The notes under the pieces: model-generated
Databases searched by the model: none
What the model was told of the DNA's origin: nothing
Seen by the model: only the letters and a program-made list of their open reading frames with translations
Program-made: the position numbers and the translations under genes
Part shown: in pieces, positions 1 through 16,180 of the stretch
How positions within the stretch are numbered: position 1 is the stretch's first letter
Layout: each line of letters starts with the position of its first letter
Assembly (NCBI GenBank): GCA_025210525.1
Contig: JAOARP010000025.1
Location: forward strand, 1 to 40,775
Source: Marinisporobacter sp.
GTDB taxonomy: Bacteria > Bacillota > Clostridia > Peptostreptococcales > Thermotaleaceae
Length of the DNA: 40,775 nucleotides
Direction: 5' to 3'

Positions 1-566
1 CAGTAGATGCAGTAACGACAGTAACAGAAGTAACAAATGTAGCATCAGTAGACGCAGTAGATGCAGTAGCGACAGTAACAGAAGTAACAAATGTAGCATC
101 AGTAGACGCAGTAGATGCAGTAACGACAGTAACAGAAGTAACAAATGTAGCATCAGTAGACGCAGTAGATGCAGTAGCGACAGTAACGTATGTAACAGAA
201 GTGAAAGCAATTACAGATACGGTAAATATTAATGTAGTGGGGAATGGATTTGTAGATGATCTTGGAACAGCAGCAAATATTGCAGCTGGAACTACAGTTA
301 CAGTATTGACGGAAGATACTTCTGAAACGAAGGTTACATCCTTCTATGTGAAGAGAACTGGTGGAGCTGGAACTGTTGAAACATGGTTACAAATATCTCC
401 AACTAATGTAGAGGCTGATTATATTGATGATCCGAATATAGTAACTTTAACAGATGATACACCAACTATATTAGATCCACAAAAATATCTTAAGTATACG
501 AGAGTAAGGGCAAAAGCTATAGGAGATACAGCAACTGTAGTGGCTCGTTATAATGCTCAAAATTAA
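1..566 (+). CDS. Val-x-x repeat surface protein with DUF6385-like C-terminal domain (5' end missing)
   Basis: The reading frame is open from base 3, so this is the C-terminal part of a longer protein; the GTG at 201 is internal. The first about 65 residues are an 18-residue repeat in which Val occupies every third position (unit VDAVTTVTEVTNVASVDA). The last about 110 residues are a non-repetitive, Thr-rich, probably all-beta domain ending in YNAQN. That end resembles the Y-x-AQ-E ends of the two DNRLRE proteins at 14.4-16.2 kb, which I assign to DUF6385. A hairpin follows the stop. Proteins of this build (low-complexity triplets plus a small end domain) are typical of spore or cell surfaces, and the neighbours are spore-surface-like; the role is inferred. 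The N-terminus, and so any secretion signal, lies outside the window. Confidence 0.75.
   Translation, partial: VDAVTTVTEVTNVASVDAVDAVATVTEVTNVASVDAVDAVTTVTEVTNVASVDAVDAVATVTYVTEVKAITDTVNINVVGNGFVDDLGTAANIAAGTTVTVLTEDTSETKVTSFYVKRTGGAGTVETWLQISPTNVEADYIDDPNIVTLTDDTPTILDPQKYLKYTRVRAKAIGDTATVVARYNAQN
3..185 (+). repeat. 54-bp in-frame tandem repeat
   Basis: Three full units (3-56, 57-110, 111-164) and part of a fourth are almost identical at DNA level. They differ mainly at one codon that alternates ACG, GCG, ACG, GCG (Thr/Ala), so the true period may be 108 bp. The array extends past the left edge. It encodes the Val-x-x stretch of the surface protein and is likely to vary in copy number. Confidence 0.9.
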
Positions 567-573
567 TCAAGAG

Positions 574-596
574 GCTATCGGATATATTCCGATAGC
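574..596 (+). terminator. Hairpin after the Val-x-x repeat gene (possible terminator)
   Basis: A perfect 9-bp stem (GCTATCGGA / TCCGATAGC) with a 5-nt loop begins 7 nt after the stop codon. It lacks the T-run of a standard intrinsic terminator, so it may instead protect the mRNA 3' end or be leaky into the glycosyltransferase gene. Confidence 0.45.
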
Positions 597-617
597 TATA
601 CATATGATTGAGGGGGG

Positions 618-2432
618 ATGGACTTGCTATTAAGTTTATGTGTTATTACAAAAAATGAAGAAAAAAATCTTCCGAAATGTCTTGAAAGTGTAAAAGATAT
701 TGTAGATGAAATGATTGTTATAGATACAGGATCTACTGATGATACAGTAAAAATAGCCAAAAGTTATGGAGCAAAGGTAGGTTATTATCAGTGGCAGGAT
801 AATTTTAGTGATGCAAAAAATTATGCTTTCAAGCAGGCAAAGGGAGATTGGATTTTAACCATGGATGGAGATGAAGAATTGTGTGATTCAGATAAGGATC
901 TGGTTTTGTCCTTATTAAATAATCCAGAGATAGATGTATATATATTTCAAACATTAAGCTATCTTGGAAACAAGGTGGGGCAAGAATTATCTAGTAACCT
1001 CAATGTTAGATTAATAAGAAATCATAAAGGATATAAGTATAGAGGTGCTATTCATGAGCAGCTTTGTAACCAATATGATGAAAATATTGATCAAGATAAA
1101 GTAAAAATAGAAAAAATAGTTGTGTATCATTATGGATATTTAAAAAGTGTAGAAAGAGAAAAAAATAAATCCAATAGAAATATGAAAATTTTAGAAAAGA
1201 TTTTAAAAAATGATTCTAATAATAATTTTCATTTATATAATATGGGCAGTGAATATTTAAGACTAAGAGATTTTGAAAAAGCTCTTGAATATTATAAAAG
1301 AGCATATGAAGAATTTATGCCCTATGGTGCCCATAGTCCTAAGCTTTTAGTAAAAATGATTTTAACTTTAGATTTATTAAATAGATATGAAGAAGAAAGA
1401 AAAATTTTAGAGATTGGCCTTAGATATTATCCTAAATTTACAGATTTAGAATATTTAAAAGCTTGTTTAAATCATAAAGAAAAAAAGTATTTATCAGCAA
1501 TAAAAGGGTTTATTAAATGTTTAGATATGGGAGAAGCCCCTATGGCTTTATGCAATATTAGTGGGGTAGGTGGATATAAGTCATATTATGCATTAGGGGA
1601 GATTTATCATCAGCTAGGAGATGATGATGAAGCCTATCATTGCTATATAAGAGCTATTCAAGGAAAGCCTGATTTTCATGTACCCCTTCATAGAATTGCA
1701 GAAATTTTAATAAAAAAAGAAAAGAATATAGATATAGTAAAACAAAAGTTAGAATCATTTTTTAAGAAGCCTTTTCATATAGGAGCTTATACAAAGTTAG
1801 GAGATTTATGGTTTGGGAATGAAAAATATGATGTAGCTCTTGAATATTTTTTAAGAGCTAAAGAAATTCTAAAAGATGATTATAGAGTAAATTATTATGT
1901 GGGTATTTGTTATCTATTTCTTAAGGATTATCAACAAGCATATAAGTATTTTGAAAAAGTAAAAGATGGAACTTATTGTGAACAGGCGGTATATAAAAGG
2001 ATTCTTTGTGAAATCATTTCCCAGAACCTAGAAGATGCAGAAAGATTACTTCTTTTAGCTAAAAGTTTTGAAAACAGGTCAATGTATAAGGTATATGCAT
2101 CCTTAAAAAAATTAATAGAAAATGAAGATTGTGAAAATATTAGTGACAATAAAGAGGAATCTAAAGAAGTTGTCGATATAATTTTTATCCTTTTAAACAT
2201 GCTTATAAAAATAGCATCACCTGAAATATTTGAAAAATCTTTACAACTATTAAATCTTATTGAAAATGATGAAGTTCTACTAAAACTTGCAAAACTATAT
2301 TATCAAAATGGTTATGATCGTTTAGCGTATCAAGAATTTATAAGATCTATAAAAATTTTTGACAGAATAGATCCAGAGGGTTTAGAAATGATGAAAAATA
2401 TATTAAAATTATCTAGTTTATTCACACCATAA
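618..2432 (+). CDS. Family 2 glycosyltransferase with C-terminal TPR repeats
   Basis: The N-terminal about 230 residues are a GT2 (GT-A fold) domain of the SunS-like, TPR-carrying type. It has the opening LSLCVITKNEE, a nucleotide-binding DTGSTDDT at about 36-43 and the metal-binding DGDE at about 83-86. The remaining about 370 residues are TPR-like helical repeats. Such enzymes act in the cytoplasm and transfer sugars to proteins or glycans; substrate unknown. The neighbouring Thr-rich repeat protein and collagen-like protein are plausible targets. The SD AGGGGGG directly abuts the ATG at 618, so the TTG at 624 (spacing about 8 from AGGGG) may be the real start. The TPR half is clearly homologous to that of the next gene, which has a different N-terminal domain. 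No signal peptide. Confidence 0.9.
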   Translation: MDLLLSLCVITKNEEKNLPKCLESVKDIVDEMIVIDTGSTDDTVKIAKSYGAKVGYYQWQDNFSDAKNYAFKQAKGDWILTMDGDEELCDSDKDLVLSLLNNPEIDVYIFQTLSYLGNKVGQELSSNLNVRLIRNHKGYKYRGAIHEQLCNQYDENIDQDKVKIEKIVVYHYGYLKSVEREKNKSNRNMKILEKILKNDSNNNFHLYNMGSEYLRLRDFEKALEYYKRAYEEFMPYGAHSPKLLVKMILTLDLLNRYEEERKILEIGLRYYPKFTDLEYLKACLNHKEKKYLSAIKGFIKCLDMGEAPMALCNISGVGGYKSYYALGEIYHQLGDDDEAYHCYIRAIQGKPDFHVPLHRIAEILIKKEKNIDIVKQKLESFFKKPFHIGAYTKLGDLWFGNEKYDVALEYFLRAKEILKDDYRVNYYVGICYLFLKDYQQAYKYFEKVKDGTYCEQAVYKRILCEIISQNLEDAERLLLLAKSFENRSMYKVYASLKKLIENEDCENISDNKEESKEVVDIIFILLNMLIKIASPEIFEKSLQLLNLIENDEVLLKLAKLYYQNGYDRLAYQEFIRSIKIFDRIDPEGLEMMKNILKLSSLFTP

Positions 2433-2481
2433 GAAAATATTTCGTAGAATAATACAAAATTATAAAGTGAGTGAGTAAATA

Positions 2482-4254
2482 ATGCTAGAAATAATAGAAA
2501 AAAAGCCTTTTAGAGATGCAGCCATTAATAGTGATATGCCTTATGAAAATTATGGGGATTATTATGCTTTATTTGTTGGAAAATATATGAATCATTCTGT
2601 CTATAGAAGTTTACTTTATTTTGATTTGCCATGTTTAGAGGAGGCAGGAAAGGTAAAAAAAGTAGAATTATTTTTATATGTAGCTCGAAATGATTGTCCT
2701 TCTATAAAAAAAGAATTTCATGTATATAGGATAAAAGAGGGCTTTGAAGAAAGTACCATAAACTATAGCAATCAATCTTCTATAGATGAAAGCTTTTATC
2801 AGACTTTTACAATAAATGAGGAAATGAATAATTATATAAAAGTAGATATTACAAGATTTTTTAACGACTGGTATTGTGAAAAAGCGCCTAATCATGGATT
2901 GATGATAAAAGCGGCAAATGAAAATAAAAACTTGTTAGTAGCTTTTTATAGCAAAGATCATGGGGTGGATACACCCAAATTACAAATACATTTTGAGAGA
3001 TTTGATGAAAAAAATCAACGGATTATAAAAAACAGCAAAATGAAAAATATTAAACCAGAAATTCTTTATGGATTGGCAAATGAATATTTTAATAATAAAA
3101 ATTATAAAGAAGCGTATGATTGCTATGAAGGCGCTTTTGACCAACTTATACAAAAACAAAAATATGGATATCAATTAGTATATAGGATGGTATTATCTCT
3201 AAAAGAACTACAACTGTATGATAAAGCTTTAGAAATGATTCATAAGGGAATTGGGTATTATCCAGATTTTACAGACTTAATTTATATAAAAGGGCAAATA
3301 TATATAAGTCAAAATAAAACTTCCTTAGCTATTAGGACGTTAAATGAATGCTTAAATAGGGGAGATTCTCCTATGTATCTGAATTATATAGAAGGTGCAG
3401 GAAGCTGTAAAGCATGGGAGTCTCTAGGCGAGATTTATTATGAATTAGGAGATTATGAGGAAAGCTATTATTATTGTAAAAAGGCATATGAGAAAAATAG
3501 TCAATTTATAAAACCTCTTTATACTATTACGAAAATATTATTCCATGAAAGAAGGGATCTTCAGGATATAAAAGAAAAATTAGAAAATTTTGTGGGAACT
3601 TATTTAGATGGAAAAGAATATATAATCCTTGCAGAGATTTATTTACAACTAAGAAGCTATAAAATAGCCTATGAATATATTGAAAAAGCTGAGGAATTGA
3701 TAATATTTTCGGAGAAGGATTTTTATCGTAAGGGAATGTGTTGCCTTCTTTTGAAAAATTATAAAAAAAGCTATAATAGCTTTGAAAAAATAGAAAAGGG
3801 AGAGTTAAAAGAAAAGTCTATTTTCAATAGGGTATTATGTGAAATACTCAGTGGGAATATGTATGGAGCAGTAAAGCTTTTAAATGAAGTGAGAGAACCT
3901 GAAAATACGAAGAAGAGGAAAGTATATTATGCTTTAAAAAATATATTAGAAGGAAAAAAATATGATATTATTAGTGATGATCAAGAAGAATCTAAAGAAT
4001 TGTTAGACATTATTTTTAAGGTATTAGATATTTTGATAGAAGCTGCATCTCCAGAAAACTTCGAAAAAGCATTGCAATTATTGAATCTTGTAGAAAATGA
4101 TGGGGTACTATTAAGGCTTGCAAAGCTTTATTATGATCATGACTTATATTCTTTAGCTTATGGAGAATTTGTAAGATCTATAAAGCTTTTTGATGAAATT
4201 GATTTAGATGGATTAAATATGATGACAAAGTCTTTTGCGAAAATGAGTATATAA
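2482..4254 (+). CDS. DNRLRE domain protein with TPR repeats
   Basis: Residues 1 to about 175 match the DNRLRE/CBM96-like beta-sandwich pattern: YRSLLYFDLP, then LFLYVARN, a VYRIKEGFEESTINY segment, and DITRFFNDWY before NHGLMIKA. The rest is a TPR array that aligns along its whole length with the C-terminal half of the preceding glycosyltransferase, including a near-identical final block (EESKE..DIIF, then LQLLNL.END). The pair therefore looks like a duplication followed by exchange of the N-terminal domain. No catalytic residues and no signal peptide are visible. DNRLRE domains recur twice more in this locus, so I infer a structural or scaffolding role on the spore surface, perhaps guiding the glycosyltransferase through the shared TPR. 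It sits 49 nt downstream and is probably co-transcribed. Confidence 0.82.
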   Translation: MLEIIEKKPFRDAAINSDMPYENYGDYYALFVGKYMNHSVYRSLLYFDLPCLEEAGKVKKVELFLYVARNDCPSIKKEFHVYRIKEGFEESTINYSNQSSIDESFYQTFTINEEMNNYIKVDITRFFNDWYCEKAPNHGLMIKAANENKNLLVAFYSKDHGVDTPKLQIHFERFDEKNQRIIKNSKMKNIKPEILYGLANEYFNNKNYKEAYDCYEGAFDQLIQKQKYGYQLVYRMVLSLKELQLYDKALEMIHKGIGYYPDFTDLIYIKGQIYISQNKTSLAIRTLNECLNRGDSPMYLNYIEGAGSCKAWESLGEIYYELGDYEESYYYCKKAYEKNSQFIKPLYTITKILFHERRDLQDIKEKLENFVGTYLDGKEYIILAEIYLQLRSYKIAYEYIEKAEELIIFSEKDFYRKGMCCLLLKNYKKSYNSFEKIEKGELKEKSIFNRVLCEILSGNMYGAVKLLNEVREPENTKKRKVYYALKNILEGKKYDIISDDQEESKELLDIIFKVLDILIEAASPENFEKALQLLNLVENDGVLLRLAKLYYDHDLYSLAYGEFVRSIKLFDEIDLDGLNMMTKSFAKMSI

Positions 4255-4397: not shown

Positions 4398-4778
4398 TTA
4401 TAATTCATCTTCTTCGATATAATCATCATGATTATGATTACATGGCTCATTACAATGATCAGGAGTAATAATAAGCTCCCTGATTTTCACATGATTGATC
4501 CAAATCTTTACAACATATTTTACATGAGGACAAAGGGGACCAAATATAAATTGACCACAATCATCTGTAAAAGTATGGGTAAGGGGTTCTAGGACACAAG
4601 GCTTTTTAGGGTCAGGCATTTTAAATAATTTTACAACAGCATCTTTTACTACCTTGTTATAACAATCTTTTACAACCCCATGAATGACACTTCTAGGTTC
4701 TTTAGGAACTTTGACAATGGCATCGATTTGTTCATTTTCATCTGGAACAAAATCAAAATTAACCAATTTATATCCCAT
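4398..4778 (-). CDS. Carboxypeptidase regulatory-like domain protein with Cys/His tail
   Basis: This 126-residue protein has a central fold of the CarboxypepD_reg/CnaB-like beta-sandwich type: VIHGVVKDCYNKVVKDAVVKL, then TDDCGQFIFGPL, then a closing strand region. The tail (HCNEPCNHNHDDYIEEDEL) is rich in Cys, His and acidic residues. It has no signal peptide and no enzyme motif. It is a paralogue of the protein at 6728-7240. The RBS AAAGGAGG precedes the ATG. Its location among SPOCS and collagen-like genes suggests a small structural spore-surface protein; the tail could bind metal or form disulfides. Function is inferred only. Confidence 0.75.
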   Translation of the reverse strand: MGYKLVNFDFVPDENEQIDAIVKVPKEPRSVIHGVVKDCYNKVVKDAVVKLFKMPDPKKPCVLEPLTHTFTDDCGQFIFGPLCPHVKYVVKIWINHVKIRELIITPDHCNEPCNHNHDDYIEEDEL

Positions 4779-4937
4779 ATAAATTCCTCCTTTTCATTTT
4801 TCATATGATACATTTTATTAGGATACAAGCTTAATTATTCCATTTTTAAATGATTCTAGAAAAAAGAAAAAGAATAAAAAAGCTATACTAAAATAGTACA
4901 AGTTATCATATAGTTAGTACAAAGAGAGGTGGGATTT

Positions 4938-5555
4938 ATGGGAATTGTTAGAAACTCTATGAATATAGAAGGACTTATATTAGAAGAAGATATACCCAGT
5001 CAAATAAAAGGACAAATCATAAGATATTCAGAAGTTGAAACCTTGCATGTTCCTGAGGACAAAGGAGAAGTGCAAAATATTTATGAAATAGCTATGAATA
5101 TAGAAATCAAATCAAAAAGAAGCATACATGCCCCCTTTGGGAACATCATAGTGGTAGATGGAATAAAGGAATACAAAATTATTTATACAGAAAATACAAA
5201 ATCCTGTAAAGCGAATATTCTTGAATTAAAAGTGCCATTTAATACATTTATTGAGTTACCAAAGGAAATAGACAATATTTTAGACATAAAAATTTATATA
5301 CTGGATGCGTATTTTGATGTTTTAGATCCTAGGAAGATTTATGGACATTTTTTATATTTAGTAGATGTTCATTATGACCACAAAGATCAAAGAAGTGAGT
5401 TGATGGTTTTTAAGGAAGATAATCATAAAGAGAATCATTTAGCAGAAGAAATGATCTATACAGATGCCACAATAGAAGAAATATCTGTCTCAGAGGAACC
5501 TATAAAAAGAGAAAGGGAAGATTTACTTATTGATTTAGACGAAGAAATATTGTGA
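4938..5555 (+). CDS. SPOCS (DUF3794) domain protein, divergent, with acidic tail
   Basis: About 205 residues. The first about 150 follow the SPOCS/DUF3794 plan: an N-terminal strand with LHVPEDK where others have LPE.KPDI, a KEYKIIYTEN segment matching Q.i.YtA, then LELKVPFNTFIELP matching the HaaHF.iPFsaFI motif, and a final strand LYLVDVHYD. SPOCS domains are known from SipL, which binds SpoIVA at the spore coat-cortex boundary. The last about 45 residues are charged and acidic. I start at ATG 4938 because GAGAGGTGG lies 6-8 nt upstream, rather than at the GTG at 4929, which is inside the SD. Its stop is 10 nt before the start of the GT4 gene, so the two form an operon. This is the most divergent of the eight copies. 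Confidence 0.7.
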   Translation: MGIVRNSMNIEGLILEEDIPSQIKGQIIRYSEVETLHVPEDKGEVQNIYEIAMNIEIKSKRSIHAPFGNIIVVDGIKEYKIIYTENTKSCKANILELKVPFNTFIELPKEIDNILDIKIYILDAYFDVLDPRKIYGHFLYLVDVHYDHKDQRSELMVFKEDNHKENHLAEEMIYTDATIEEISVSEEPIKREREDLLIDLDEEIL

Positions 5556-5565
5556 GGTGAAGGGT

Positions 5566-6690
5566 ATGAAAATTTGTTTGGATGGAATGGCACTAAATTA
5601 TTTGATGAATACAGGATTATATACTTATACTTATGAATTAATCAATCATTTACTTCATATTTATCCTCAAGGGAAATATGAAGTATTAATGGATAAAAAT
5701 GAGGAAAGATGCTCTTTGGTAAAACATAGAAAATTAAAATGGATATATATGGGAAATGATAGAAAAAACAATGATTATACTATGCTTGTAGATCATATAA
5801 GGAGGGATCATATTCACATTTATCATTCGGTGAATAATGGATTTAGCATTCCAAAAGAAAAGGTGTGTAAATATATTAGCACTATACATAATCTATTGCC
5901 TGTTAGTAAGGCTGAATATGTAGATACAAAATATTTTAATAAGTTTATGAACGTTTTCCCTAATGCTTTAGAAAGAGCAGATAAGATTATCGCTGTATCA
6001 AATTTTATTAAAGATGAACTGATGCATCATTACAAGGTTGCAGAAAATAAAATAAAGGTTATTTATCCAATTTGTTCAAATCAATTTAAACCATTAGATC
6101 TAGAAGAGAGCAAAAGAAAAATCAAAAAACATTATAAGATAGAAGGAGATTACTTACTTCATGTAGGAAGTATTCACATGAGAAAAAATATTCCAACTAT
6201 TTTTAGGGCTTTTAAAGAAGTTTTAAAATCATATAAAGATTTAACGCTACTGATGATAGGCGATTATGAAGGAAAAAGAGAAGGCTATTATTTAAAGCTC
6301 AAAGAATATGCTAAAAGCTTGAATATAGATGAAAATGTGCTTTTTCTTGGAAAGGTTAGTTATGAACATATGCTATATTTTTATAATGGGGCGAAGTGCA
6401 TGATCAATATTTCTAGCTATGAAGGATTTCCGTTATCTGTAGTAGAAGCAATGGCATGTAATACACCTATTGTTTGTACAAAAAATTCTTCTTTTGGAGA
6501 AGCATTAGGAAAAGCTGCTATATGGATAGATCTAAAAGATATTCACCTTATGAAGGATATTCTTTTGGAAGTATTATCAAATGAAAACTTTACAATAAAT
6601 TATATAGGAGAAGGAAAAGCACAAAAAACGAAATATGAATCTCAAGGTATTGTAAAGGATATGGTTCGTTTATATGAAGATATCGTATAA
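5566..6690 (+). CDS. Family 4 glycosyltransferase
   Basis: 374 residues with a GT-B fold. The N-terminal acceptor half includes ADKIIAVSNFIKDEL. The C-terminal Glycos_transf_1 half has HVGSIHMRKNIPTIF, then LFLGKVSYEHM and the E-x7-E donor motif region SSYEGFPLSVVEAMA. It is a retaining, cytoplasmic, nucleotide-sugar-dependent transferase; acceptor unknown. I chose ATG 5566, 5-6 nt after the SD GAGGTGA, over the in-frame GTG at 5557, which is part of that SD. It is translationally close to the upstream SPOCS gene, tying glycosylation to spore-surface assembly, as with glycosyltransferases that sit beside collagen-like exosporium genes in other clostridia and bacilli (inference by analogy). 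Confidence 0.88.
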   Translation: MKICLDGMALNYLMNTGLYTYTYELINHLLHIYPQGKYEVLMDKNEERCSLVKHRKLKWIYMGNDRKNNDYTMLVDHIRRDHIHIYHSVNNGFSIPKEKVCKYISTIHNLLPVSKAEYVDTKYFNKFMNVFPNALERADKIIAVSNFIKDELMHHYKVAENKIKVIYPICSNQFKPLDLEESKRKIKKHYKIEGDYLLHVGSIHMRKNIPTIFRAFKEVLKSYKDLTLLMIGDYEGKREGYYLKLKEYAKSLNIDENVLFLGKVSYEHMLYFYNGAKCMINISSYEGFPLSVVEAMACNTPIVCTKNSSFGEALGKAAIWIDLKDIHLMKDILLEVLSNENFTINYIGEGKAQKTKYESQGIVKDMVRLYEDIV

Positions 6691-6694: not shown

Positions 6695-6730
6695 AGGGGG
6701 AACCCCATGGTGGATTCCCTCTGAATTTTA
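6695..6730. terminator. Hairpin between convergent genes (probable bidirectional terminator)
   Basis: Bases 6695-6702 (AGGGGGAA) pair with 6715-6722 (TTCCCTCT, one G-U), with further CC/GG pairing inside. A short TTTT follows on the plus strand. It separates the convergent GT4 gene and the minus-strand Cys-tail gene. The stem is imperfect and the T-run short. Confidence 0.5.
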
Positions 6731-7240
6731 AAAATAACTATCATCAGGTAAATGGTGATCATTACATGAACAATTATTATTCGGTGAGGAGTGATAATCA
6801 TTACAAGAACAAGGATGATCGCATGGATCACATACTGCTTTTTTTAGAACGAGTTCTTTTCCTGTTGCTTGTTTGCTCACAAAGACTCTAAACTTGCAAA
6901 CAGAGTCATCATAAGGTGGACATATATCAAATTGATAAAAGCCTAGACAATCAGTAATACCGTGAGCGACTCCTTCGTATTCTATGTTACAGCCTTTTTT
7001 TACTTCTTTTACTAATTTTACTAATGCGCAAGGAACCGGCTTCCCATTACAATCTCTTATTTGTCCCCAAAGTCTTATTGTTTTTCTCTTTGCTACTTCA
7101 ATGTCTACTCTTATTTCACATGCTTTTGTATGCTTATCTACTTTAATACGTTTAGAAACATTGCCTTCTACAAATTCACAATCATCTGGTTTTACTTCTA
7201 CATTACCACAATAGGTGTCCATTCCTGTGATTTCCATCAT
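6728..7240 (-). CDS. Carboxypeptidase regulatory-like protein with duplicated CSCND-H tail
   Basis: 170 residues. The central part (about 45-135) has the same beta-sandwich plan as the gene at 4398: IRLWGQIRDCNGKPVPCALVKL, then ITDCLGFYQFD, then the CDPCDHPC junction. The tail carries the motif C-S-C-N-D-x-H twice, with acidic residues, making it one of the most Cys/His-rich stretches in the locus. It has no signal peptide and no known enzymatic motif. The RBS GGGAGG is about 11 nt from the first ATG. A sequence matching a sigma-K promoter lies upstream at 7360-7386 on this strand. I infer a structural spore-surface protein that may be cross-linked by disulfides or metal. Confidence 0.75.
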   Translation of the reverse strand: MMEITGMDTYCGNVEVKPDDCEFVEGNVSKRIKVDKHTKACEIRVDIEVAKRKTIRLWGQIRDCNGKPVPCALVKLVKEVKKGCNIEYEGVAHGITDCLGFYQFDICPPYDDSVCKFRVFVSKQATGKELVLKKAVCDPCDHPCSCNDYHSSPNNNCSCNDHHLPDDSYF

Positions 7241-8026: not shown

Positions 8027-9490
8027 TTGGAAAATACAGAAAACCTTTTAGTAAAAACCATAGGTATTCATAAAAATTCCAAAGAAAATTCAGAGTATTT
8101 CTCTTTTGTATCTTCAGAAGAAGTAATGATACTACCTGAATATATGCCTGATATAAAAAAGATTGTTTCTATTATTGTAGAACCTGAAATACTCTCAAAA
8201 AAATGTATAGATACTATGAAGGGGCAATCTTCAGAAGGACACTATTTATCTGGGAAAAAGTTTATGGTTCATATGAAATTAAAACAAAAGGTATTATATT
8301 TAGCAGATGTAGCAGAAAAAACAATTCATACTTTTCAAAATGAATATTTTCAAAGTGTATATATTGTTATTCCAAAAAACATTGATGGATCAGATCCAAA
8401 AGATCTATTAAAATTTGATTATTTAAAACCCCAAGTGAATATACAAGAGATTGTTACTAAAAAGATAAATGAGCGGTGTATATTTAAAAAAGTTAGCTTG
8501 CTAGTAGATTTAGTTTTGATTCCTACTTATCAATTAAGTTATTCCATTAAGAACGAGCAAAGTAATATTTTTATATGTTATATGGATGGAAGCCATAAAA
8601 AGCAAATAACAATTTCTCGAAAAAATCATAACATTAAGCCTATGTGGTCTCCAATGGGATGGGAGATTGCCTTTTTATCAGATGATGAAAATAATAAGGG
8701 AAAATATATGCTTTATGTGTATAGCTTAGCAGATGGAGTGATTAGAAGAATTACTGACCCGGAGGATTTTGATGCTGTGGGAAGCTTTTGTTGGGATTAT
8801 GAAGAGCGAAGAATTATATTTTCAGCTTCTTATAGAGAACAGAAAAAATTATTTTGCATCAACATCAATACATTAGATTGGAAACAAATAACCTTTGGAA
8901 ATAGCGAAGCAAAAAATTATAAGCCAAAGAGCAGCCCAACAGGTGGGTATGTTGCTTTTTTACAATCTATATCAGGCGTTTCAAATTTATATATGATGGA
9001 TACAAATACAGGAAATATCACAAAGCTTACTTCGTGTGGATTTATAAGAGATTTTACCTGGTCTAAAGAAGGTAAGGTTATTGCATATATTTGGGATAGA
9101 AGTGGAGAATATAATAGGACCTATCTAATAGATTTAAATGGTATGGAGAATATAGTTTTGAAAACACCTAAACAAATTATAACCATGAGAAATATAAAGT
9201 TTTCTTTGGATAATCAATATATTGCATTTATTGGCTCTGATTTAATAACAGACAATATATTTTATTATGATTTAAGAAGAAAACGCATGACCAATTTAAC
9301 TAAAAATTATAATGGAATAAAGATTAGTGACTTTGTTTGGAAATCAGATGGGGAAAGTATTTATTATACAGCTAATGATTTAGAATATTATAATATTTAT
9401 AGAATATCTATAAAAAATTTTATGAAATATGCACTTACGAGTACGATGGCGTCAGATATTTCCTTGAGTTATCGTCCTAAAATTATATAA
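8027..9490 (+). CDS. SPOCS (DUF3794) domain fused to a TolB-like beta-propeller
   Basis: 487 residues. Residues about 15-165 form a SPOCS domain (LPEYMPDIKKIVSI, LSGKKFMVHMKLKQKVLYLADV, VYIVIPKN, then FKKVSLLVDL). Residues about 180-475 hold about six PD40/TolB-like blades with repeating patterns such as IKPMWSPMGWEIAFLSDD, YKPKSSPTGGYVAFLQS and ISDFVWKSDGESIYYTAND. The start is a TTG: AGGAGGA at 8014-8020 is 6 nt upstream and no better codon is near. TolB-type propellers are usually protein-interaction platforms, so this may be a hub linking the SPOCS layer to other surface components. No signal peptide, unlike periplasmic TolB. Co-transcribed with the SPOCS gene just upstream. Confidence 0.88.
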   Translation: MENTENLLVKTIGIHKNSKENSEYFSFVSSEEVMILPEYMPDIKKIVSIIVEPEILSKKCIDTMKGQSSEGHYLSGKKFMVHMKLKQKVLYLADVAEKTIHTFQNEYFQSVYIVIPKNIDGSDPKDLLKFDYLKPQVNIQEIVTKKINERCIFKKVSLLVDLVLIPTYQLSYSIKNEQSNIFICYMDGSHKKQITISRKNHNIKPMWSPMGWEIAFLSDDENNKGKYMLYVYSLADGVIRRITDPEDFDAVGSFCWDYEERRIIFSASYREQKKLFCININTLDWKQITFGNSEAKNYKPKSSPTGGYVAFLQSISGVSNLYMMDTNTGNITKLTSCGFIRDFTWSKEGKVIAYIWDRSGEYNRTYLIDLNGMENIVLKTPKQIITMRNIKFSLDNQYIAFIGSDLITDNIFYYDLRRKRMTNLTKNYNGIKISDFVWKSDGESIYYTANDLEYYNIYRISIKNFMKYALTSTMASDISLSYRPKII

Positions 9491-9572: not shown

Positions 9573-10049
9573 TTAGTGATAAAGACTTCCATCTATTAAA
9601 AGGATTATATTTTCAAATAATGTTCTTTGATCTATAAGAGATAAGCAAAGATCTTCTATGTAGGGGGTAATGGTAATAGGTGTATCTAAGATATAATCTT
9701 TTGGAAGCATGATAGAAGTGCAAAAAGGAATGTTAAATTCTGCAGCATGAACTACCTGTGTAGGCACGTCAGCTGCATATTCAATTTTTTGTATGAAATC
9801 CCCTTCTATAGAAAGATATTTTCCTGTTAAAACTTGTTTTTCTAAAGAAGTAATTGCAGGGGTTTTGATGAGCGTCTTTTTTAAGATGTTAATTTTTGTA
9901 TTTACTTCAACAAGATGGGAAATATCAGGCTTTGATTCGGGTAATACCAGAGTTCTTTCTATAGAGAATTGCTTGAAAATATAGGGCTGTTCAGGTAAGG
10001 TATCAGCAATACCTATAACTTTTGCAGAATTTTTGATTGTACCTTTCAT
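9573..10049 (-). CDS. SPOCS (DUF3794) domain protein
   Basis: 158 residues, a single SPOCS domain: VLPESKPDISHLVEVNTKI, LTGKYLSIEGDFIQKIEYAADV, VVHAAEFNIPFCTSIMLP, TPYIEDLCL and a closing LFENIILLID strand. The start is the ATG at 10049, 6 nt after AAGGAGGATC; the in-frame ATG at 10082 has no SD. A terminator of the neighbouring three-gene SPOCS group lies between it and the gene upstream, so it is transcribed separately. By sequence it resembles the 7523 copy more than the tandem trio. No signal peptide. Confidence 0.87.
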   Translation of the reverse strand: MKGTIKNSAKVIGIADTLPEQPYIFKQFSIERTLVLPESKPDISHLVEVNTKINILKKTLIKTPAITSLEKQVLTGKYLSIEGDFIQKIEYAADVPTQVVHAAEFNIPFCTSIMLPKDYILDTPITITPYIEDLCLSLIDQRTLFENIILLIDGSLYH

Positions 10050-10164: not shown

Positions 10165-10680
10165 TCATGGGCAAGGAATAAGTGGTACAGCAGTAAATAA
10201 TACTGTTACATTTTTAAATACTTCTCGATCATTTAATGCTTTTATAAATACATCCTCAACACATGGTTTTACGCAGAATTGTGCATCTAGATCTGTATTA
10301 CCATCTATAACGATAAATGCTGAAAATGGTATATCAAAGTGTGCTGAATGAACTGTTTGGCGTGGCACATTTGCAGTATAAACTACCTTTTGTTTTAAAA
10401 TGCCTTCAATGATCAATTTTCTCCCTGTTAATTGTGTTCCTTCTGCATTGTCACCGCCAGCAGAGTCTGGTGTTTCTACTACTCTCTTAGAGATGATTTT
10501 TACCTTTACAAATACCTTATCAATTGTTTCTATATCAGGTTTTTGTGGGGGAATGGCTAAGACCTCTGGTATAGAAATTTCCGTCCAATTTGGAGTAGTG
10601 GTAGTATCTATATTAAAATTATCTGTATCACATAATCCGATCACATCAATAACTTGATTGTCAAAACATTTACAACTCAT
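10165..10680 (-). CDS. SPOCS (DUF3794) domain protein, third gene of a tandem trio
   Basis: 171 residues. After a short Cys-containing N-terminus (MSCKCFDNQVIDVIGLCD) comes a full SPOCS domain: IPEVLAIPPQKPDIETIDKV, RVVETPDSAGGD, LTGRKLIIEGILKQKVVYTANV, TVHSAHFDIPFSAFIVID, KPCVEDVFI and REVFKNVTVLF. It is very similar to the two genes before it (10702-11346 and 11377-11910), so the three arose by tandem duplication. The spacing to the gene before it is only 21 nt. The C-terminus (LIPCP) keeps a Cys, as do its siblings. Predicted spore-coat or exosporium building block; no signal peptide. Confidence 0.88.
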   Translation of the reverse strand: MSCKCFDNQVIDVIGLCDTDNFNIDTTTTPNWTEISIPEVLAIPPQKPDIETIDKVFVKVKIISKRVVETPDSAGGDNAEGTQLTGRKLIIEGILKQKVVYTANVPRQTVHSAHFDIPFSAFIVIDGNTDLDAQFCVKPCVEDVFIKALNDREVFKNVTVLFTAVPLIPCP

Positions 10681-10701: not shown

Positions 10702-11346
10702 TTATGCACAAGTACGTGGAGTTGCTTTGATGAATATAGTCACGTTTTTAAATACTTGTCTTTTTGATACTCTACATACGAATATATCTTCAATACATGG
10801 TTCTATTTTATATTTAGTAAATAATGGTGTATCCCATGGAAGGATGATGAATGCTGAAAATGGTACATCAAAATGTGCTGCATGAACGGATTGTTCCTCT
10901 ACATCAGCAGTATAGATAATCTTTTGTCTGAGTATTCCTTCTAGAACAAGCTTTCTTCCTGTTAAAAAGGTTCCTTCATAATTAGGAATTGGTGTAAATA
11001 CTGGAGGTGGTCCAGGAACGATAGTTCCTACAGCTGGTGTTTTTACTACTCTTTGAGAGATAATATCTACACAAGAATTAAGGGTTAGAATCTGCTCTAT
11101 ATCAGGCTTTTGTTTTGGAATACACAATACTTCTGGAATGAATATCTGAGTCCAAGTATCATCTGGATCTGCACCAATAGTAATCCCTTCTATTTGTGCT
11201 TTTGTGCATACTCCTTTTATATCAATGAGTTGGTCTTCTTCGCAACCGCAACCCTCATCGACTTTTTTATCAAATAAGCCTAAGGAACCACAGGCAATAG
11301 AACCTAGCTTTCTTTCAATAACAATATCATTACATTGACTGCTCAT
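10702..11346 (-). CDS. SPOCS (DUF3794) domain protein, second gene of the trio
   Basis: 214 residues, longer than its siblings because of an extra about 45 residues at the N-terminus with a Cys/acidic patch (VDEGCGCEEDQLIDIKGVC) and a Pro-rich insertion (PGPPPVFTPIPN) in the loop before LTGRKLVLEGILRQKIIYTAD. The rest is canonical SPOCS: SVHAAHFDVPFSAFIILP, EPCIEDIFV and RQVFKNVTIF. RBS AAAGGAGG in front of the ATG; 30 nt after the previous gene. The loop insertion is at the same place where the siblings carry DSAGG or DSGGVEN segments, so this loop appears to be the variable, perhaps exposed, part of the domain. Confidence 0.88.
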   Translation of the reverse strand: MSSQCNDIVIERKLGSIACGSLGLFDKKVDEGCGCEEDQLIDIKGVCTKAQIEGITIGADPDDTWTQIFIPEVLCIPKQKPDIEQILTLNSCVDIISQRVVKTPAVGTIVPGPPPVFTPIPNYEGTFLTGRKLVLEGILRQKIIYTADVEEQSVHAAHFDVPFSAFIILPWDTPLFTKYKIEPCIEDIFVCRVSKRQVFKNVTIFIKATPRTCA

Positions 11347-11376: not shown

Positions 11377-11910
11377 TTAGCAGTTATCTGGACATTCTGT
11401 CATTGCAGCAGGAACGGCTTGTAAGAATAATGTTACATTCTTAAAGATTTGTCTTGGGCAAACATCCATAATAAATACATCTTCTACGCAAGAATTTACA
11501 TCGAAATTTAGATCTAGTGGATCTTCTCCACTAATAGGGTTATCTAAAACGATAAATGCTGAAAATGGCACTACAAAATGAGCAGAGTGTACAGACTGCT
11601 CAGGAACAGCAGCTGTATAATTGATTGTTTGACATAATTGGCCTTCAACAATAAGCTTTCTTCCAGTTAATAATTTGCCTTCTTGATTTTCTACTCCACC
11701 TGAATCTGGAGTTACAATTACTTTTTTTCTAAGAATCTCTACTGTTATATTTACAGAATTAATTTGTTCGATATCAGGCTTTTGCTCTGGGAGAATTAAA
11801 GTTTCAGGAATAGAAATTTGTGTCCAGTAAGGATAAGTGGTTAAATCAAAGACACTAGGATCACATAATCCAATGATATCTATAAAGCTTTTATTTGTAC
11901 ATGCACTCAT
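11377..11910 (-). CDS. SPOCS (DUF3794) domain protein, first gene of the trio
   Basis: 177 residues: a short N-terminus with one Cys (MSACTNKSFIDIIGLCD), then a complete SPOCS domain with ISIPETLILPEQKPDIEQI, VTPDSGGVEN, LTGRKLIVEGQLCQTINYTA, SVHSAHFVVPFSAFIVLD, NSCVEDVFI and RQIFKNVTLFL. It ends in a Cys-containing tail (MTECPDNC). The SD AAAGGAGG is 10 nt from ATG, and the 13-nt palindrome AGGATATTATCCT overlaps this SD, which could hide it in a small hairpin. A good sigma-K-like promoter lies upstream (11967-11992), so this is probably the promoter-proximal gene of the trio. Confidence 0.88.
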   Translation of the reverse strand: MSACTNKSFIDIIGLCDPSVFDLTTYPYWTQISIPETLILPEQKPDIEQINSVNITVEILRKKVIVTPDSGGVENQEGKLLTGRKLIVEGQLCQTINYTAAVPEQSVHSAHFVVPFSAFIVLDNPISGEDPLDLNFDVNSCVEDVFIMDVCPRQIFKNVTLFLQAVPAAMTECPDNC

Positions 11911-12001: not shown

Positions 12002-13531
12002 TTACGAAAAGATTACATCATCAATATACCAAGTACTGCCTATTACATCATCAGGAATAACTGTTACAGGCGGAACAGGATCTGCATTTACCTCTTCTGC
12101 AATGAATACAATTGTAGCTTGTGTAGTTCCTGGTGGAATTGCATCTGCACAACCACATGTAGTTGTACAATCACAGCTTAATAATTCTCTATAGGATTCA
12201 AAGTCGTAGTTATTGATTAATGGAGGAACATCAGTATTTACCAATACTTGATTAGGAGAGCCTTCAAATATACGGATACGTATATCCGCATCACTTTCGT
12301 TAAGGGTTCCATCGAGTATGGATGGAGTTACATCTCCCCAAAAGACTAATGCTCTTGTATTTAAGCTCCAAGGAATAGTGGAAGTTGGGTTTACTTTTGT
12401 TCCATTGAATTCATCGAGCCTTGCTCCCCAAAATTGAAGTTCATAGAAACATTCAGGATCAATACCATCTACAACTTGTGCCAGTATGGCTTTTTCCCAA
12501 CCTGTTCGATCTGTATTTACTTGTGTTTGTAAGCATGCAGAAACTAATCCTGAGTGAGAAATATGATTAATAGCAGTTGTATCTAGTTTTGCTTCTTGAC
12601 CAGGAGCATTTGATTTTTCAGTATTGATAGCTATATCCCAAAAGTCTTCAATAACTACACCACATTCAAAGCTCCCATCATCAATGAGATTACAACATCT
12701 GCAGCAGGGTCCTGGAGGTCCTTGAGGTCCCTCTGATCCCGGAGGTCCTGGGTCGCCTTGAGGTCCTGGGTTGCCTTGAGGTCCTTCAGGTCCTTCTGGT
12801 CCTTGTGGCCCCTGAGGTCCTTCTGGTCCTGGGGGACCTGGGCATCCTTGGGGACCAGGATCACCTTTGGGACCTTGCGGTCCTTCTGGGCCTGGACAGC
12901 CACAACAACCTTGAGAACCAGGATCACCTTTAGGTCCTTGAAGTCCTTGAGGACCTATAGGACCCATACAACCTTGATCTCCTTTAGGTCCTTGACAGCC
13001 TTGAGGTCCTGGAGGTCCTTGACATCCGCTATCCCCTTTAGGACCTTGTGGACCAACGGATCCTGGAGGTCCAACGGGTCCTGGCGGTCCTGGGCATCCA
13101 GGAGGTCCCATAGGTCCCCCATCCCCTTTAGGACCTTGTGGACCAACAGGCCCTGGGAAGCCTTGTGGACCAGGGCATCCTGGCATACCTTGAGATCCGC
13201 CATCCCCCTTAGGTCCTTGCGGTCCAGTAGGTCCAGGGAATCCTTGAGAACCAGGGCATCCTTGCATACCTTGAGAACCATTGTCGCCCTTTGGGCCTAT
13301 GCATCCATTATTTCCTTGAGGACCAGGATAACCTTGGCAACCTGTATCCCCTTTAGGTCCAACAGGTCCTGGAGGTCCTGGAGGACCCTGAGGACCCGGA
13401 TATCCTTGAGGACCTTGCCCAATATATGATGAATGTCCTCCCGAATAAAGTTCAGGGTAAGAATAGACACTATGTTGATCACGTTTGGAAGATTCATTTA
13501 TAGGTTTATCTGTATAGATATATCCAGCCAA
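12002..13531 (-). CDS. Cysteine-rich collagen-like protein with C-terminal jelly-roll domain
   Basis: About 509 residues from a TTG start. Residues 1-39 are a Tyr/Ser-rich leader ([16 protein letters not shown]). Residues about 40-276 are some 79 uninterrupted Gly-X-Y triplets, rich in Pro, with eight GPKGD motifs and 11 triplets holding Cys in the X position (GCP, GCQ, GCC and others). The helix ends in GPCCRCC. Residues about 277-509 resemble a carbohydrate-binding jelly roll ([11 protein letters not shown] at the start, WYIDDVIF at the end). BclA-type collagens of spore exosporia share this leader-collagen-globular plan. I chose TTG 13531 because AAAGGAGG lies 9 nt upstream and a sigma-K-like promoter sits between it and the in-frame ATG at 13606. 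Neighbouring glycosyltransferases may glycosylate it. No signal peptide or membrane anchor. Confidence 0.9.
12704..13414 (-). repeat. Gly-X-Y coding repeat, about 79 triplets
   Basis: A run of GGN codons every third codon makes this the most G+C-rich stretch of the first 16 kb. A 27-residue (81-bp) unit beginning GPKGD and passing through GMx-GCP-GxQ-GFP appears twice in full (triplets 14-22 and 23-31) and degenerates afterwards. Confidence 0.9.
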
Positions 13532-13556
13532 TTTTTTCGTCCTCCTTTCTCGATAA

Positions 13557-13584
13557 TATACTATGTGTGAGAAACTTATGTGGT
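13557..13584 (-). promoter_or_regulatory. Candidate sigma-K promoter of the collagen-like gene (ACC-N16-CATAGTATA)
   Basis: On the minus strand ACC (13584-13582), a 16-nt spacer and CATAGTATA (13565-13557) match the sigma-K consensus exactly. The start of transcription would fall near 13550, immediately before the SD of the TTG start at 13531, which supports that start. Confidence 0.6.
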
Positions 13585-13585
13585 G

Positions 13586-13612
13586 ACATTTTCTATAGAC
13601 ACACATATAGTA
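13586..13612 (+). promoter_or_regulatory. Candidate divergent sigma-K promoter (AC-N16-CATATAGTA)
   Basis: AC at 13586-13587, 16 nt, then CATATAGTA at 13604-13612 on the plus strand. Its -35 element is back to back with that of the collagen promoter. It points to the SPOCS gene at 13779 but would leave a leader of about 160 nt in which I see no convincing gene. Confidence 0.45.
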
Positions 13613-13778: not shown

Positions 13779-14363
13779 ATGAAAAAGGATTGCATTGAGA
13801 TTACAGGGATTACCCCCTATGATCATTTTCCAGAGTGTCCATGTCATTATCCTAGTGGGCAAATTTGTGAAACAGATAAAATGTGTATCCCAAGAAAAAA
13901 ACCTGATATAGAATGTATTTGTCAAGTTTTTGCAGATGTATCGGTATCTTCATATAAGATCATACGGACTCCTGTAGGAAAAAAATTAGTGATTGAGGGG
14001 ATGAAGCATATTAAGCTTTTATATGTAGGGGATGAACCTTGCCAGAATATGCATTGTGCTCATTATGATATTCCATTTTGTATGTTTGTATTATTAAAGA
14101 ATTGGGAGGGTCAAATAGTAGATATATTCACGGGAATAGAACATATTGGTATACATGAGCTAGATAGTAGGTGTTTTACTGTATCTATTATTATTTTTGC
14201 ATGCCCAATTTTCAAAAAGAAACATGATTGTTGTTATGATTATGGACAGTGTAATGCCCATGTAAATTGTGATGTACATGTAAATTGTTATACGAACACC
14301 TTAAAGAATTGTGGAGATTCATCCAATCAATATTTTCATAGAAGTTGCGAGTACGGTTGCTAA
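13779..14363 (+). CDS. SPOCS (DUF3794) domain protein with Cys/His-rich tail
   Basis: 194 residues. The SPOCS core (about 25-145) shows CIPRKKPDIECICQVFADV, IIRTPVGKKLVIEGMKHIKLLYVGD, MHCAHYDIPFCMFVLL and a closing TVSIIIFACPIF strand. The EDvfi block is replaced by GIHELDS and the domain is shorter than in the trio. The last about 45 residues form a Cys/His/Asn-rich tail with a small repeat (HVNCDVHVNC) and a C-terminal Cys. There are about 20 Cys in total, most of them outside the usual SPOCS pattern. SD AGGAGG precedes the ATG. It is transcribed divergently from the collagen-like gene, itself Cys-rich, which suggests the two could be disulfide-linked in the assembled layer (inference). Confidence 0.85.
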   Translation: MKKDCIEITGITPYDHFPECPCHYPSGQICETDKMCIPRKKPDIECICQVFADVSVSSYKIIRTPVGKKLVIEGMKHIKLLYVGDEPCQNMHCAHYDIPFCMFVLLKNWEGQIVDIFTGIEHIGIHELDSRCFTVSIIIFACPIFKKKHDCCYDYGQCNAHVNCDVHVNCYTNTLKNCGDSSNQYFHRSCEYGC

Positions 14364-14368
14364 AAGAT

Positions 14369-14392
14369 AAAGCTGCCACTGGCAGCTTTTAT
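14369..14392. terminator. Bidirectional terminator between convergent genes
   Basis: AAAGCTGCC (14369-14377), loop ACT, GGCAGCTTT (14381-14389), flanked by A-rich DNA on the left and TTTTATT on the right. It starts right after the SPOCS gene and overlaps the stop codon of the convergent DNRLRE gene. Confidence 0.8.
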
Positions 14393-15225
14393 TCTTGTGC
14401 TTGATACCATATTTTGATGCGAGAGGTTTCACCAGGATTTACATTTTTTACTGCAACTCTTCCACATCTTGCAAAGGCATAGGGAGTAGCCCATATCATT
14501 TTATGGGGCTGAATGATACTTCCACTACAACCATCACAAATAAAATGAATGTCATCTGGACTAGATTCGAATTTAGCTATTACCGGAGTATTGCCTATGT
14601 TTTCAATATGACAAGTAAGGGTTTTGACATAGGATACATCTGCAACACCTGAATAACGCCAAGTATCATCCGTATCTACCACTTCTATATCTTCAATAAA
14701 ACGGGTTGGAAGGGGTGTATAAGTAACCTCTATAATAGGTGCTGAAACCGGATTGTTAAGGGTTACGATTTGATTATAGGTCATGTCTTGTATTTCTTCG
14801 TTTTTCATGATGAATCCATAGTTAGGGAGTTGATAATTATACCAGCTGGAAACTAGATTTGTAATATTGAAGGTATAAAAGCCTCCAGAGCTCATTGCCT
14901 TACTTTCTCCTAATAATGTAGGATCAAAAAGGGGTTGATTGATCCAATTGACAGCTTGTACAGACCAATCCTGTGTTAATGCAAAGGGGGTATAAAGAGA
15001 AGTATTTCCTCTTGACACATGTTGAACATATATTTTTAGCAATGCATTTGAAATAATACAATGATTTGGAATGCTTGAAACAGAAAATTTGAATAATATG
15101 CGATAAAAGGTAGATGTATTTTTCCTTCCTAAATACATAGTAGTACAATTGCCAAATACCTTTGATGGTTCACCTGAACTGATTTGTGCTACTTCTACTT
15201 GTAAATTCATTATACTAGGGGTCAT
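14389..15225 (-). CDS. DNRLRE domain + DUF6385-like domain protein
   Basis: 278 residues in two parts. Residues about 3-170 are a DNRLRE/CBM96-like beta-sandwich (YRILFKFSVSSIP, ALLKIYV, WSVQAVNWINQP, FNITNLVSSWY, NYGFIMKNEE). Residues about 185-278 are a DUF6385-like domain (VSYVKTLTCHIENIGNTPV, GRVAVKNVNPGETSRIKIWY) ending in YQAQE. No signal peptide or membrane segment. The SD AAAGGAGG is well placed before the ATG. It is a close paralogue of the gene upstream at 15326-16180, and the C-terminal domain resembles the end of the Val-x-x protein at the left edge. I infer an adhesive or scaffolding surface protein assembled from the mother-cell side. Confidence 0.85.
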   Translation of the reverse strand: MTPSIMNLQVEVAQISSGEPSKVFGNCTTMYLGRKNTSTFYRILFKFSVSSIPNHCIISNALLKIYVQHVSRGNTSLYTPFALTQDWSVQAVNWINQPLFDPTLLGESKAMSSGGFYTFNITNLVSSWYNYQLPNYGFIMKNEEIQDMTYNQIVTLNNPVSAPIIEVTYTPLPTRFIEDIEVVDTDDTWRYSGVADVSYVKTLTCHIENIGNTPVIAKFESSPDDIHFICDGCSGSIIQPHKMIWATPYAFARCGRVAVKNVNPGETSRIKIWYQAQE

Positions 15226-15325
15226 AAATTTTACCTCCTTTCAAAAGAGTCCTCTTTTTGTTATATGATATTCAAAGGAGAAGAGGGATGTTCGTACAAT
15301 ACTTTGAATATATGCAGTCATTCTT

Positions 15326-16180
15326 TTATTCTTGTGCTTCGTACCAAATTTTAATTCTTGATGTTTCAGTAGGGTCTATGTTTCTTGCTGCGATTCGGCC
15401 ATATTTTGCAAATGAATAAGGAACAAGCCAAATCATTTCATGACCTGGTAATATGCGAGGATTTGAACAATCGTCAATAAAATCAATGCCATTGGGGCTT
15501 GTTTGGTATTTTACCTCTACAGGTGTACTGCCTAAATTTTTAATATGGCATGTAATTGTTTTTGTAAGAGATATATCTACAATAGAGGAAAAACTATAGG
15601 ATCCAGCTGTATCTATTTCTTCATTTCCTGAAATATAACGAGAAGAAATAATATTAATTTTAGATTTTTGAGTATAGGCTATTTCTATTACTGGGGATAA
15701 ATCAGAATTTAAATCTGTGTTAATTTGCATGTATGATTGATCTTGTAATTCTTCACTTTTTATTATTAAACCATAGTTCATAATTTCATTTTCATACCAT
15801 TTGGTGATCATTCTTGTTATATTGAAAGTATGAAAATCTCCTTTTTGTATAAGTTTAGTTTCTCCTGCTACAGTAGGATAGTAAGCGGGTTGATTATTCC
15901 ATGTAACTGTTTGAAAAGACCAATCCTGTGATAGTGCATAAGGGGTAAATGCAATAGGCGTGAGTAGCCCTGCATATCGGATATATATCTTAAGTATGGC
16001 TTTTAATATGAAACATTGATTTGGGATAATTGAAACAGGAAATTTAAAAAGTATTCGATAAATGCTAGATTCATTTTTTCTTCCTAAGTGCATAGTTGAA
16101 CATAGACCAAATACTGTATCTGGTTGATACGAGCTAATCTGTGCTGTGACTGTTTGTGGAAATATACTTACAGAACTCAT
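15326..16180 (-). CDS. DNRLRE domain + DUF6385-like domain protein (paralogue)
   Basis: 284 residues with the same two-domain plan as the following gene: DNRLRE (YRILFKFPVSIIP, AILKIYI, WSFQTVTWNNQP, FNITRMITKWY, NYGLIIKSEELQD) and DUF6385-like (SLTKTITCHIKNLGSTPVEVKY, GRIAARNIDPTETSRIKIWY), ending in YEAQE. The start is ATG 16180, preceded by AAGGAGGATC; the frame extends up to an ATG at 16285 but without an SD. The 100-nt gap between the two paralogues has no clear terminator, so they may be co-transcribed. The DNRLRE domain is found in many secreted clostridial proteins, but there is no export signal here, consistent with spore assembly. Confidence 0.85.
   Translation of the reverse strand: MSSVSIFPQTVTAQISSYQPDTVFGLCSTMHLGRKNESSIYRILFKFPVSIIPNQCFILKAILKIYIRYAGLLTPIAFTPYALSQDWSFQTVTWNNQPAYYPTVAGETKLIQKGDFHTFNITRMITKWYENEIMNYGLIIKSEELQDQSYMQINTDLNSDLSPVIEIAYTQKSKINIISSRYISGNEEIDTAGSYSFSSIVDISLTKTITCHIKNLGSTPVEVKYQTSPNGIDFIDDCSNPRILPGHEMIWLVPYSFAKYGRIAARNIDPTETSRIKIWYEAQE

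Follow-up and report, generated by a model that had tools for sequence, protein, structure and literature searches.

A candidate spore-surface assembly island combining SPOCS, collagen-like, CBM96 and glycosyltransferase genes in a Marinisporobacter-type clostridium

Background

The SPOCS (SpoVID-CotE-SipL) domain (PMC10867305) takes its name from three proteins described as coat morphogens (PMC10867305, PMC6436350). SpoIVA recruits SipL to the forespore through the LysM domain of SipL (PMC6436350), and CotE is reported to form homotrimers and a calcium-dependent meshwork (PMC11980541). In this study, a locus rich in SPOCS genes was analysed in Marinisporobacter sp., a genus placed in Thermotaleaceae by the NCBI taxonomy. 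It lies at the start of the window, by which is meant the whole stretch of 40,775 nucleotides analysed (contig C60, positions 1-40775; the genome has 4.69 Mb and 66 contigs). The locus is probably a spore-surface assembly island, in which a SPOCS layer would anchor glycosylated collagen and other fibres.

Among described systems, the ribbon-appendage cluster of Clostridium taeniosporum has the gene order CRD1 (564 aa), HYPO1, HYPO2 (158 aa), HYPO3 (160 aa), CRD2 (413 aa), P29a (269 aa), GP85, P29b (269 aa) and CL2, with P29a, P29b and GP85 as appendage proteins (PMC5749712). HYPO1, HYPO2, HYPO3 and the CRD C-termini are given no known function in that 2018 paper (PMC5749712). The glycan of BclA, the protein of collagen-type exosporium filaments, contains rhamnose (PMC6222408). 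Clostridia are stated in two papers to have no ExsF homologue (PMC4942563, PMC7333573).

Results and discussion

Gene content of the block

Seventeen ORFs, w01 to w17, span positions 3-16285; zapA, a U32 peptidase gene and mutS2 come next (Table 1). Pfam and NCBIfam scans and BLAST recovered the whole gene set that a preliminary description had claimed for positions 1-16180: seven proteins with a Pfam SPOCS domain and a sub-threshold SPOCS/beta-propeller protein, together with one collagen-like protein, one Val-x-x repeat protein, three DNRLRE proteins, two Cys/His-tailed proteins and two glycosyltransferases. The SPOCS family (PF12673, gathering score 23.6 bits) was matched above cut-off by w05, w08, w10, w11, w12, w13 and w15. 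In w09 the score fell short (14.6 bits, E 0.038), yet BLAST (33% to w08, 35% to w13) and a tree both placed the first part of this protein in the family, and the count of eight SPOCS domains given earlier holds. Each of these proteins has one SPOCS domain, and no LysM match was found in them by Pfam. A genome-wide SPOCS search gave nine matches, six in the block and three in the true SipL on contig C61; w08 and w09 were not listed among them.

Association with sporulation

In a class sample of 393 genomes, with the own genome included in both marker sets, DUF6385 was found in 24 genomes (23 above the family cut-off) and the Cys/His family of w04 and w07 in 43 (several by weak matches of about 20 bits). 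All 24 and all 43, the latter by lists compared by eye, also had a SipL-family match, meaning any PF12673 match and not only SipL, for which the base rate was 285/393. For DUF6385 and the Cys/His family, respectively, the chance of such co-occurrence was 3e-4 and 4e-7 per genome and 0.007 and 0.0015 per genus, values that are uncorrected for kinship. SpoIVA was present in 30 of the 32 genomes with named relatives of w11-w13. This check on homologues in non-sporulating species did not refute the spore-surface interpretation put forward earlier, which is supported by both co-occurrences and by the appendage-like cluster, described below, that has families in common with the block. Judged from sequence, a role of the block at the spore surface is very probable.

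Vegetative surface loci, too, can contain collagen-like, CBM96 and glycosyltransferase genes, and the block could be a vegetative cell-surface or biofilm glycoprotein locus. The presence of a SipL-family match in every genome of the class sample with DUF6385 or the Cys/His family argues against this, as does the fact that no complete block protein begins with a strongly hydrophobic stretch, and we consider a vegetative role very improbable. The highest N-terminal 15-residue mean in any block protein was 1.34, in agreement with the earlier claim that the complete proteins have no signal peptide, as measured by hydropathy only. A single internal hydrophobic stretch (mean 1.70, residue 519) was seen in w02.

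Promoters were searched with sigE- and sigK-like patterns. Among 16 regions upstream of block genes there were three sigK-like sites, against none in 19 others, a number reached in 6 of 300 shuffles; sigE-like sites were not enriched (6 versus 4; 57 of 300 shuffles). Across three genomes, the boxes preceding w05, w08 and w10 appear conserved; for the site of w13 the same holds in two.

Conserved gene order and separable modules

All 17 block genes were collinear in a second species of the genus (G395), and 16 of the 17 were kept, despite rearrangement, in a second genus of the family (G403), in which w06 is absent. The zapA-U32-mutS2 string adjoins the block in both relatives. Two ORFs, which we take to be an element of IS605/IS607 type, are inserted between w01 and w02 in G395 (L059:673-2138).

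Elsewhere the genes fall into three modules: A, with w15, the collagen gene w14, w13, w12 and w11; B, with w04, w05, w06, w08, w09 and w10, all or most of which are found in G422, C. aestuarii, Tepidibacter and C. brassicae; and C, with w01, GT2-TPR and CBM96/DUF6385 genes. Since the modules are separate in other genomes, they need not act together, and their joint function is one that we infer. This separation, seen as DUF6385/GT2-TPR, collagen-SPOCS and Cys/His-GT4-SPOCS-propeller groups, would also fit a hot spot for surface proteins, that is, three independently mobile modules between pheT and zapA without a joint structure. A further point in its favour is genome G106, in which the DUF6385/GT2-TPR module is found in the same housekeeping string. 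The collinearity in the second species and the second genus speaks against a hot spot, as does the way in which markers from each of the three modules follow SipL or SpoIVA; we regard this reading as quite unlikely.

The G106 module (L057) lies between zapA and the U32 gene. The island of the window is placed between pheT and zapA because pheS, pheT and zapA are neighbours in G106. The two are apparently separate insertions into one housekeeping string.

With w11-w13 as queries, 32 named loci were found in the genome collection. A collagen gene stood directly upstream of w13 in eight (L072-L079), those with the closest w13 relatives (62-93% identity), and three of the eight belong to Bacillus sp. 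NTK071, NTK074B and Pseudalkalibacillus hwajinpoensis, so that the gene order crosses classes. The other 24 had no collagen gene directly upstream, three of them (L084, L087, L094) holding less than 1.5 kb of upstream DNA. The SPOCS proteins might be CotE/SipL-like morphogens of the inner or outer coat only, with the collagen and CBM proteins attached otherwise. Clusters without collagen upstream are common, as these 24 loci show, and the SPOCS proteins of known role, SpoVID, CotE and SipL, are coat morphogens (PMC10867305, PMC6436350). Against a coat-only function stand the eight collagen-w13 loci, the fusion of SPOCS to DUF11 repeats and the SPOCS equivalents within an appendage-type cluster (see below), and we consider it unlikely.

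In L076, L077 and L079 (Bacillus/Pseudalkalibacillus), w13 relatives were 66-67% identical, versus 54-55% in Acetivibrio or Romboutsia; the former are closer, and horizontal transfer of the collagen-SPOCS cassette is possible. Two records labelled Lutibacter and Alistipes (L073, L085) carry clostridial SPOCS clusters and SpoIVA, and their labels look wrong or the bins mixed.

Likeness to the C. taeniosporum appendage cluster

A cluster in a Clostridium genome (G335) resembles the C. taeniosporum locus by order, size and internal similarity, not by direct sequence comparison. On one strand it encodes a 556-aa DUF11+SPOCS protein, a 161-aa relative of w07, SPOCS proteins of 166 and 160 aa and a 413-aa DUF11+SPOCS protein, and it continues with a 269-aa DUF11 protein, a 289-aa collagen protein, a 268-aa DUF11 protein and a 486-aa collagen protein, followed by GT2 genes. 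The CRD1 and CRD2 equivalents were 33% identical over 399 columns, as compared with 36.6% over 399 residues in C. taeniosporum, and the HYPO2 and HYPO3 equivalents 35% over 117, as compared with 34% over 140 (PMC5749712). The Pfam cut-off for SPOCS was exceeded in the equivalents of HYPO2 and CRD2 but missed in that of HYPO3 (20 bits); in the CRD1 equivalent the domain was detected only with a custom profile (96.7 bits). Protein sizes did not reveal C. taeniosporum itself in the genus to which G060 belongs (68 genomes).

Proteins w07, w10 and w12 of the window match the HYPO1, HYPO2 and CRD2 equivalents of G335 at 50%, 39% and 37%, respectively. Judged against these equivalents, a collagen-like protein with HYPO1- and HYPO2-type neighbours is present in the window (w14; w07, w10). 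The block is thus like the C. taeniosporum cluster in its collagen-like protein and, via G335, in SPOCS-only proteins, a w07-type protein and GT2 enzymes; it differs in adding DUF6385, CBM96, the SPOCS-propeller protein and genes of rml and Kdo type. Giant DUF11 proteins (1432 to 2762 aa) ending in SPOCS were found beside SPOCS-only genes in G405 (L064-L065), where two of the three giants were scanned by Pfam, and in G335 and G504 (see also L105, L106).

SPOCS proteins of the block

The window, the own SipL, L104 and 13 named loci out of the 32 supplied the 74 rows of a tree, from which rows below score limits were excluded. Seven of the eight window proteins fell in separate clades, each with a Tepidibacter protein and most of them well supported, and these paralogues are therefore judged to be old and distinct. 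The eighth, w05, formed a long unplaced branch, its orthologues having fallen to the score limit. The SipL domains were set apart (95/95), but on long branches flagged by the program, and the bootstrap had not settled. Each of w11-w13 has cysteines that are conserved among the 9 or 10 orthologues aligned; C16 and C141 of w13 were kept in 10/10 rows, and C5, C17, C140 and C170 of w11 in 9/9. The AlphaFold2 model of w13 was all-beta, with a mean pLDDT of 90.8.

Apart from the domain itself, w08 and w10-w13 are like CotE in being short and SPOCS-only, on what we take to be the size of CotE. They differ from SipL in having neither LysM nor a triple SPOCS. The window proteins may be distantly related to CotE; profile A3 gave no clear CotE-sized match in 299 Bacilli genomes. 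Strong intact SPOCS-profile matches were found in two of these genomes, both contributors of profile rows, and weak ones (E 3e-4 to 1e-3) in three more. Recurrent weak profile matches in Bacilli fall in frames of roughly 250-290 aa, and w13 weakly matched DUF7852 (E 0.0036) and the BC_2427 family (E 0.0011); the proteins concerned may be distant relatives. A 2.4-Mb Bacilli genome has what is apparently a decayed gene, a SPOCS match interrupted by seven stop codons (G547:C1:113332-113745).

Extension onto contig C6 and sugar genes

The boundaries 1..16180 first given for the locus proved too narrow, as it continues for about 12 kb onto contig C6. Elsewhere in the genome the w01 repeat was matched once, at the end of C6. 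This contig ends inside an ORF with the start MPNNLVFNN, a beginning like that of most of the ten w01 relatives compared, and supplies a fitting w01 N-terminus (L110:18816-19169, where L110 is C6:38001-57170). A 105-bp exact match is common to the end of C6 and the first bases of the window. We infer strongly that C6 and C60 join at w01, a gene that is cut by a contig end in all three genomes (own, G395 and G403).

Upstream on C6 the order is pheS, pheT, a CMP-Kdo-synthetase-like gene (kdsB-like), kdsA, kdsD, kdsC and a WbsX-type glycosyltransferase gene, the Kdo-pathway names being our presumptive assignments. Next, on the opposite strand, come rmlA, rmlD, rmlB, rmlC and a GT2-methyltransferase gene, which adjoins w01; about 12 kb separate the end of pheT from the end of C6. 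RmlD and RmlC were called by specific Pfam families, and RmlA and RmlB by general families and the operon. Kdo-pathway-like genes with a WbsX-type glycosyltransferase thus stand beside rml genes and w01 in a clostridium. Genes rmlA-D also lie beside the Tepidibacter cluster, and a relative (51%) of the GT2-methyltransferase lies beside the G335 cluster.

These rhamnose-type genes and the glycosyltransferases fit glycosylated filaments, and for glycosylation of w14 itself we see the chances as even. The likeness to the BclA-type exosporium filaments of Bacillus and Clostridium lies in the collagen repeats of w14 (E 4e-35) and in the glycosyltransferase and rhamnose-type genes nearby. The differences are that the C-terminal domain of w14 matches neither BclA_C nor another Pfam family, whereas one G335 collagen protein has BclA_C, and that the neighbours of w14 are SPOCS genes and not ExsFA/BxpB. 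The Ena appendages of Bacillus are a further spore-surface system with Cys-containing proteins, as in the block; they differ in DUF3992, for which no match was found by Pfam among 19 block and flank ORFs scanned, 17 of them in the block.

A possible assembly mechanism

The block proteins would be made in the cytosol of the mother cell, late in sporulation. The products of w11-w13, encoded directly after the collagen gene, would assemble in a CotE-like manner on the SpoIVA/SipL scaffold and be cross-linked by disulfides into a layer. The filaments of the collagen-like protein w14 would be anchored to this layer, as would the DUF6385/CBM96 surface proteins, and the filaments would receive rhamnose-type glycans from the glycosyltransferases. 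On C. taeniosporum-type spores, the appendages would be held by related SPOCS proteins. These specific anchor candidates are named because the collagen-SPOCS order is conserved and SPOCS proteins lie inside the appendage-like cluster. The anchor mechanism seems to us evenly poised between right and wrong.

Besides the separate occurrence of the modules and the 24 loci without collagen directly upstream of w13, several results weigh against an anchoring island. SpoIVA was found in 21 of the 24 DUF6385 genomes, the three misses being in genomes 92-94% complete, and it was not found in an Oscillospiraceae MAG (L082) and an Anaerocolumna MAG (L088), MAG denoting a metagenome-assembled genome. The sporulation promoter signal is weak and only partly conserved in relatives. 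No more than 10 of 68 loci were matched by queries with the rml and GT2-methyltransferase genes, and L078 alone had all four rml genes. DUF11 and P29 proteins, a part of the C. taeniosporum cluster, were absent from the same 19 ORFs of the window. The G335 cluster departs from that of C. taeniosporum in P29 equivalents that are 48% identical versus 87%, in collagen proteins sharing 8 of the first 39 residues versus all of them, and in having the longer collagen region in the second collagen protein instead of the first (PMC5749712). SPOCS was not found in a 2691-aa giant DUF11 protein of G522. The fold search gave no clear relative, no block ORF matched CotE by Pfam, and CotE was not reached by sequence.

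Other features of the block and its flank

CBM96 was found in w03, w16 and w17 (E 5e-15 to 4e-18; NCBIfam DNRLRE, E 1.8e-25 to 1e-29) and DUF6385 by Pfam in w01, w16 and w17. BLAST revealed a common TPR half in w02 and w03 (39% over 411 aa), on which w03 has a CBM96 domain where its paralogue w02 has a GT2 domain. It also showed w04 and w07 to be related (30% over 104 aa, E 1.7e-5); neither matched a Pfam family above cut-off. The last 235 aa of w14 had no Pfam match. Protein w09 matched the TolB model of NCBIfam with an E of 2.3e-29, yet below the cut-off of the model. Likely starts of w10 and w17, at 10049 and 16180, were chosen by ribosome-binding sites. In the flank, the U32 peptidase and mutS2 genes bear names that we presume from their translations.

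Table 1. ORFs of the block and its downstream flank
Feature	Position	Strand	Predicted content	Evidence or remark
w01	3..566	+	Val-x-x repeat stalk and C-terminal DUF6385	Pfam, E 5.6e-13; 5' part missing at contig start
w02	618..2432	+	GT2 glycosyltransferase and TPR repeats	Glycos_transf_2, E 6.6e-24
w03	2482..4254	+	CBM96/DNRLRE and TPR half as in w02	CBM96, E 3.8e-18
w04	4398..4778	-	Cys/His-tailed, probably beta-sandwich	Family A4; CarboxypepD_reg-type Pfam matches only sub-threshold
w05	4929..5555	+	SPOCS and acidic tail	PF12673, 24.4 bits
w06	5557..6690	+	GT4 glycosyltransferase	Glycos_transf_1, E 2.8e-27
w07	6728..7240	-	Cys/His-tailed, relative of G335 HYPO1 equivalent	50% over 102 aa to L104:12068-12553
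w08	7523..7999	+	SPOCS-only	PF12673, 25.1 bits
w09	8027..9490	+	SPOCS joined to TolB/PD40-type beta-propeller	PD40, 23.6 bits; SPOCS via BLAST and tree
w10	9573..10049 (ORF to 10082)	-	SPOCS-only	PF12673, 23.9 bits; conserved upstream box
w11	10165..10680	-	Cys-containing SPOCS-only, 6 Cys	PF12673, 53.4 bits
w12	10702..11346	-	Cys-containing SPOCS-only, 10 Cys	PF12673, 39 bits; 37% to CRD2-type C-terminus of G335
w13	11377..11910	-	Cys-containing SPOCS-only	PF12673, 38.6 bits; AlphaFold2 model
w14	12002..13606	-	Collagen-like, C-terminal domain without Pfam match	Collagen, E 4e-35
w15	13779..14363	+	SPOCS and Cys/His-rich tail, 20 Cys	PF12673, 40.9 bits
w16	14389..15225	-	CBM96 and DUF6385	Pfam
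w17	15326..16180 (ORF to 16285)	-	CBM96 and DUF6385	Pfam
zapA, U32 peptidase, mutS2	16455..21968	+	Housekeeping flank outside the system	ZapA by Pfam

Conclusions

No mention of DUF6385 was found in the open-access literature searched, and DNRLRE together with spores was found there only in an unrelated context. The gene combination, as read from the sequence, is new, yet a variation on known spore-surface and appendage loci. The comparison with G335 suggests an identity for HYPO1, HYPO2, HYPO3 and the CRD C-termini of the C. taeniosporum cluster. We tentatively put forward a wider view, about which we remain more doubtful than confident: SPOCS domains may be a general means of fixing fibres to the spore surface, both in Clostridia and in some Bacilli. 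Each of the old, distinct paralogues would bind a cargo of its own (collagen filaments, DUF11 fibres, propellers or Cys/His proteins) and fill the role that ExsFA/BxpB has in the Bacillus cereus group, and the ribbons of C. taeniosporum would be one elaboration. If true, the SPOCS anchor would answer how clostridia without ExsF hold collagen proteins on their spores.

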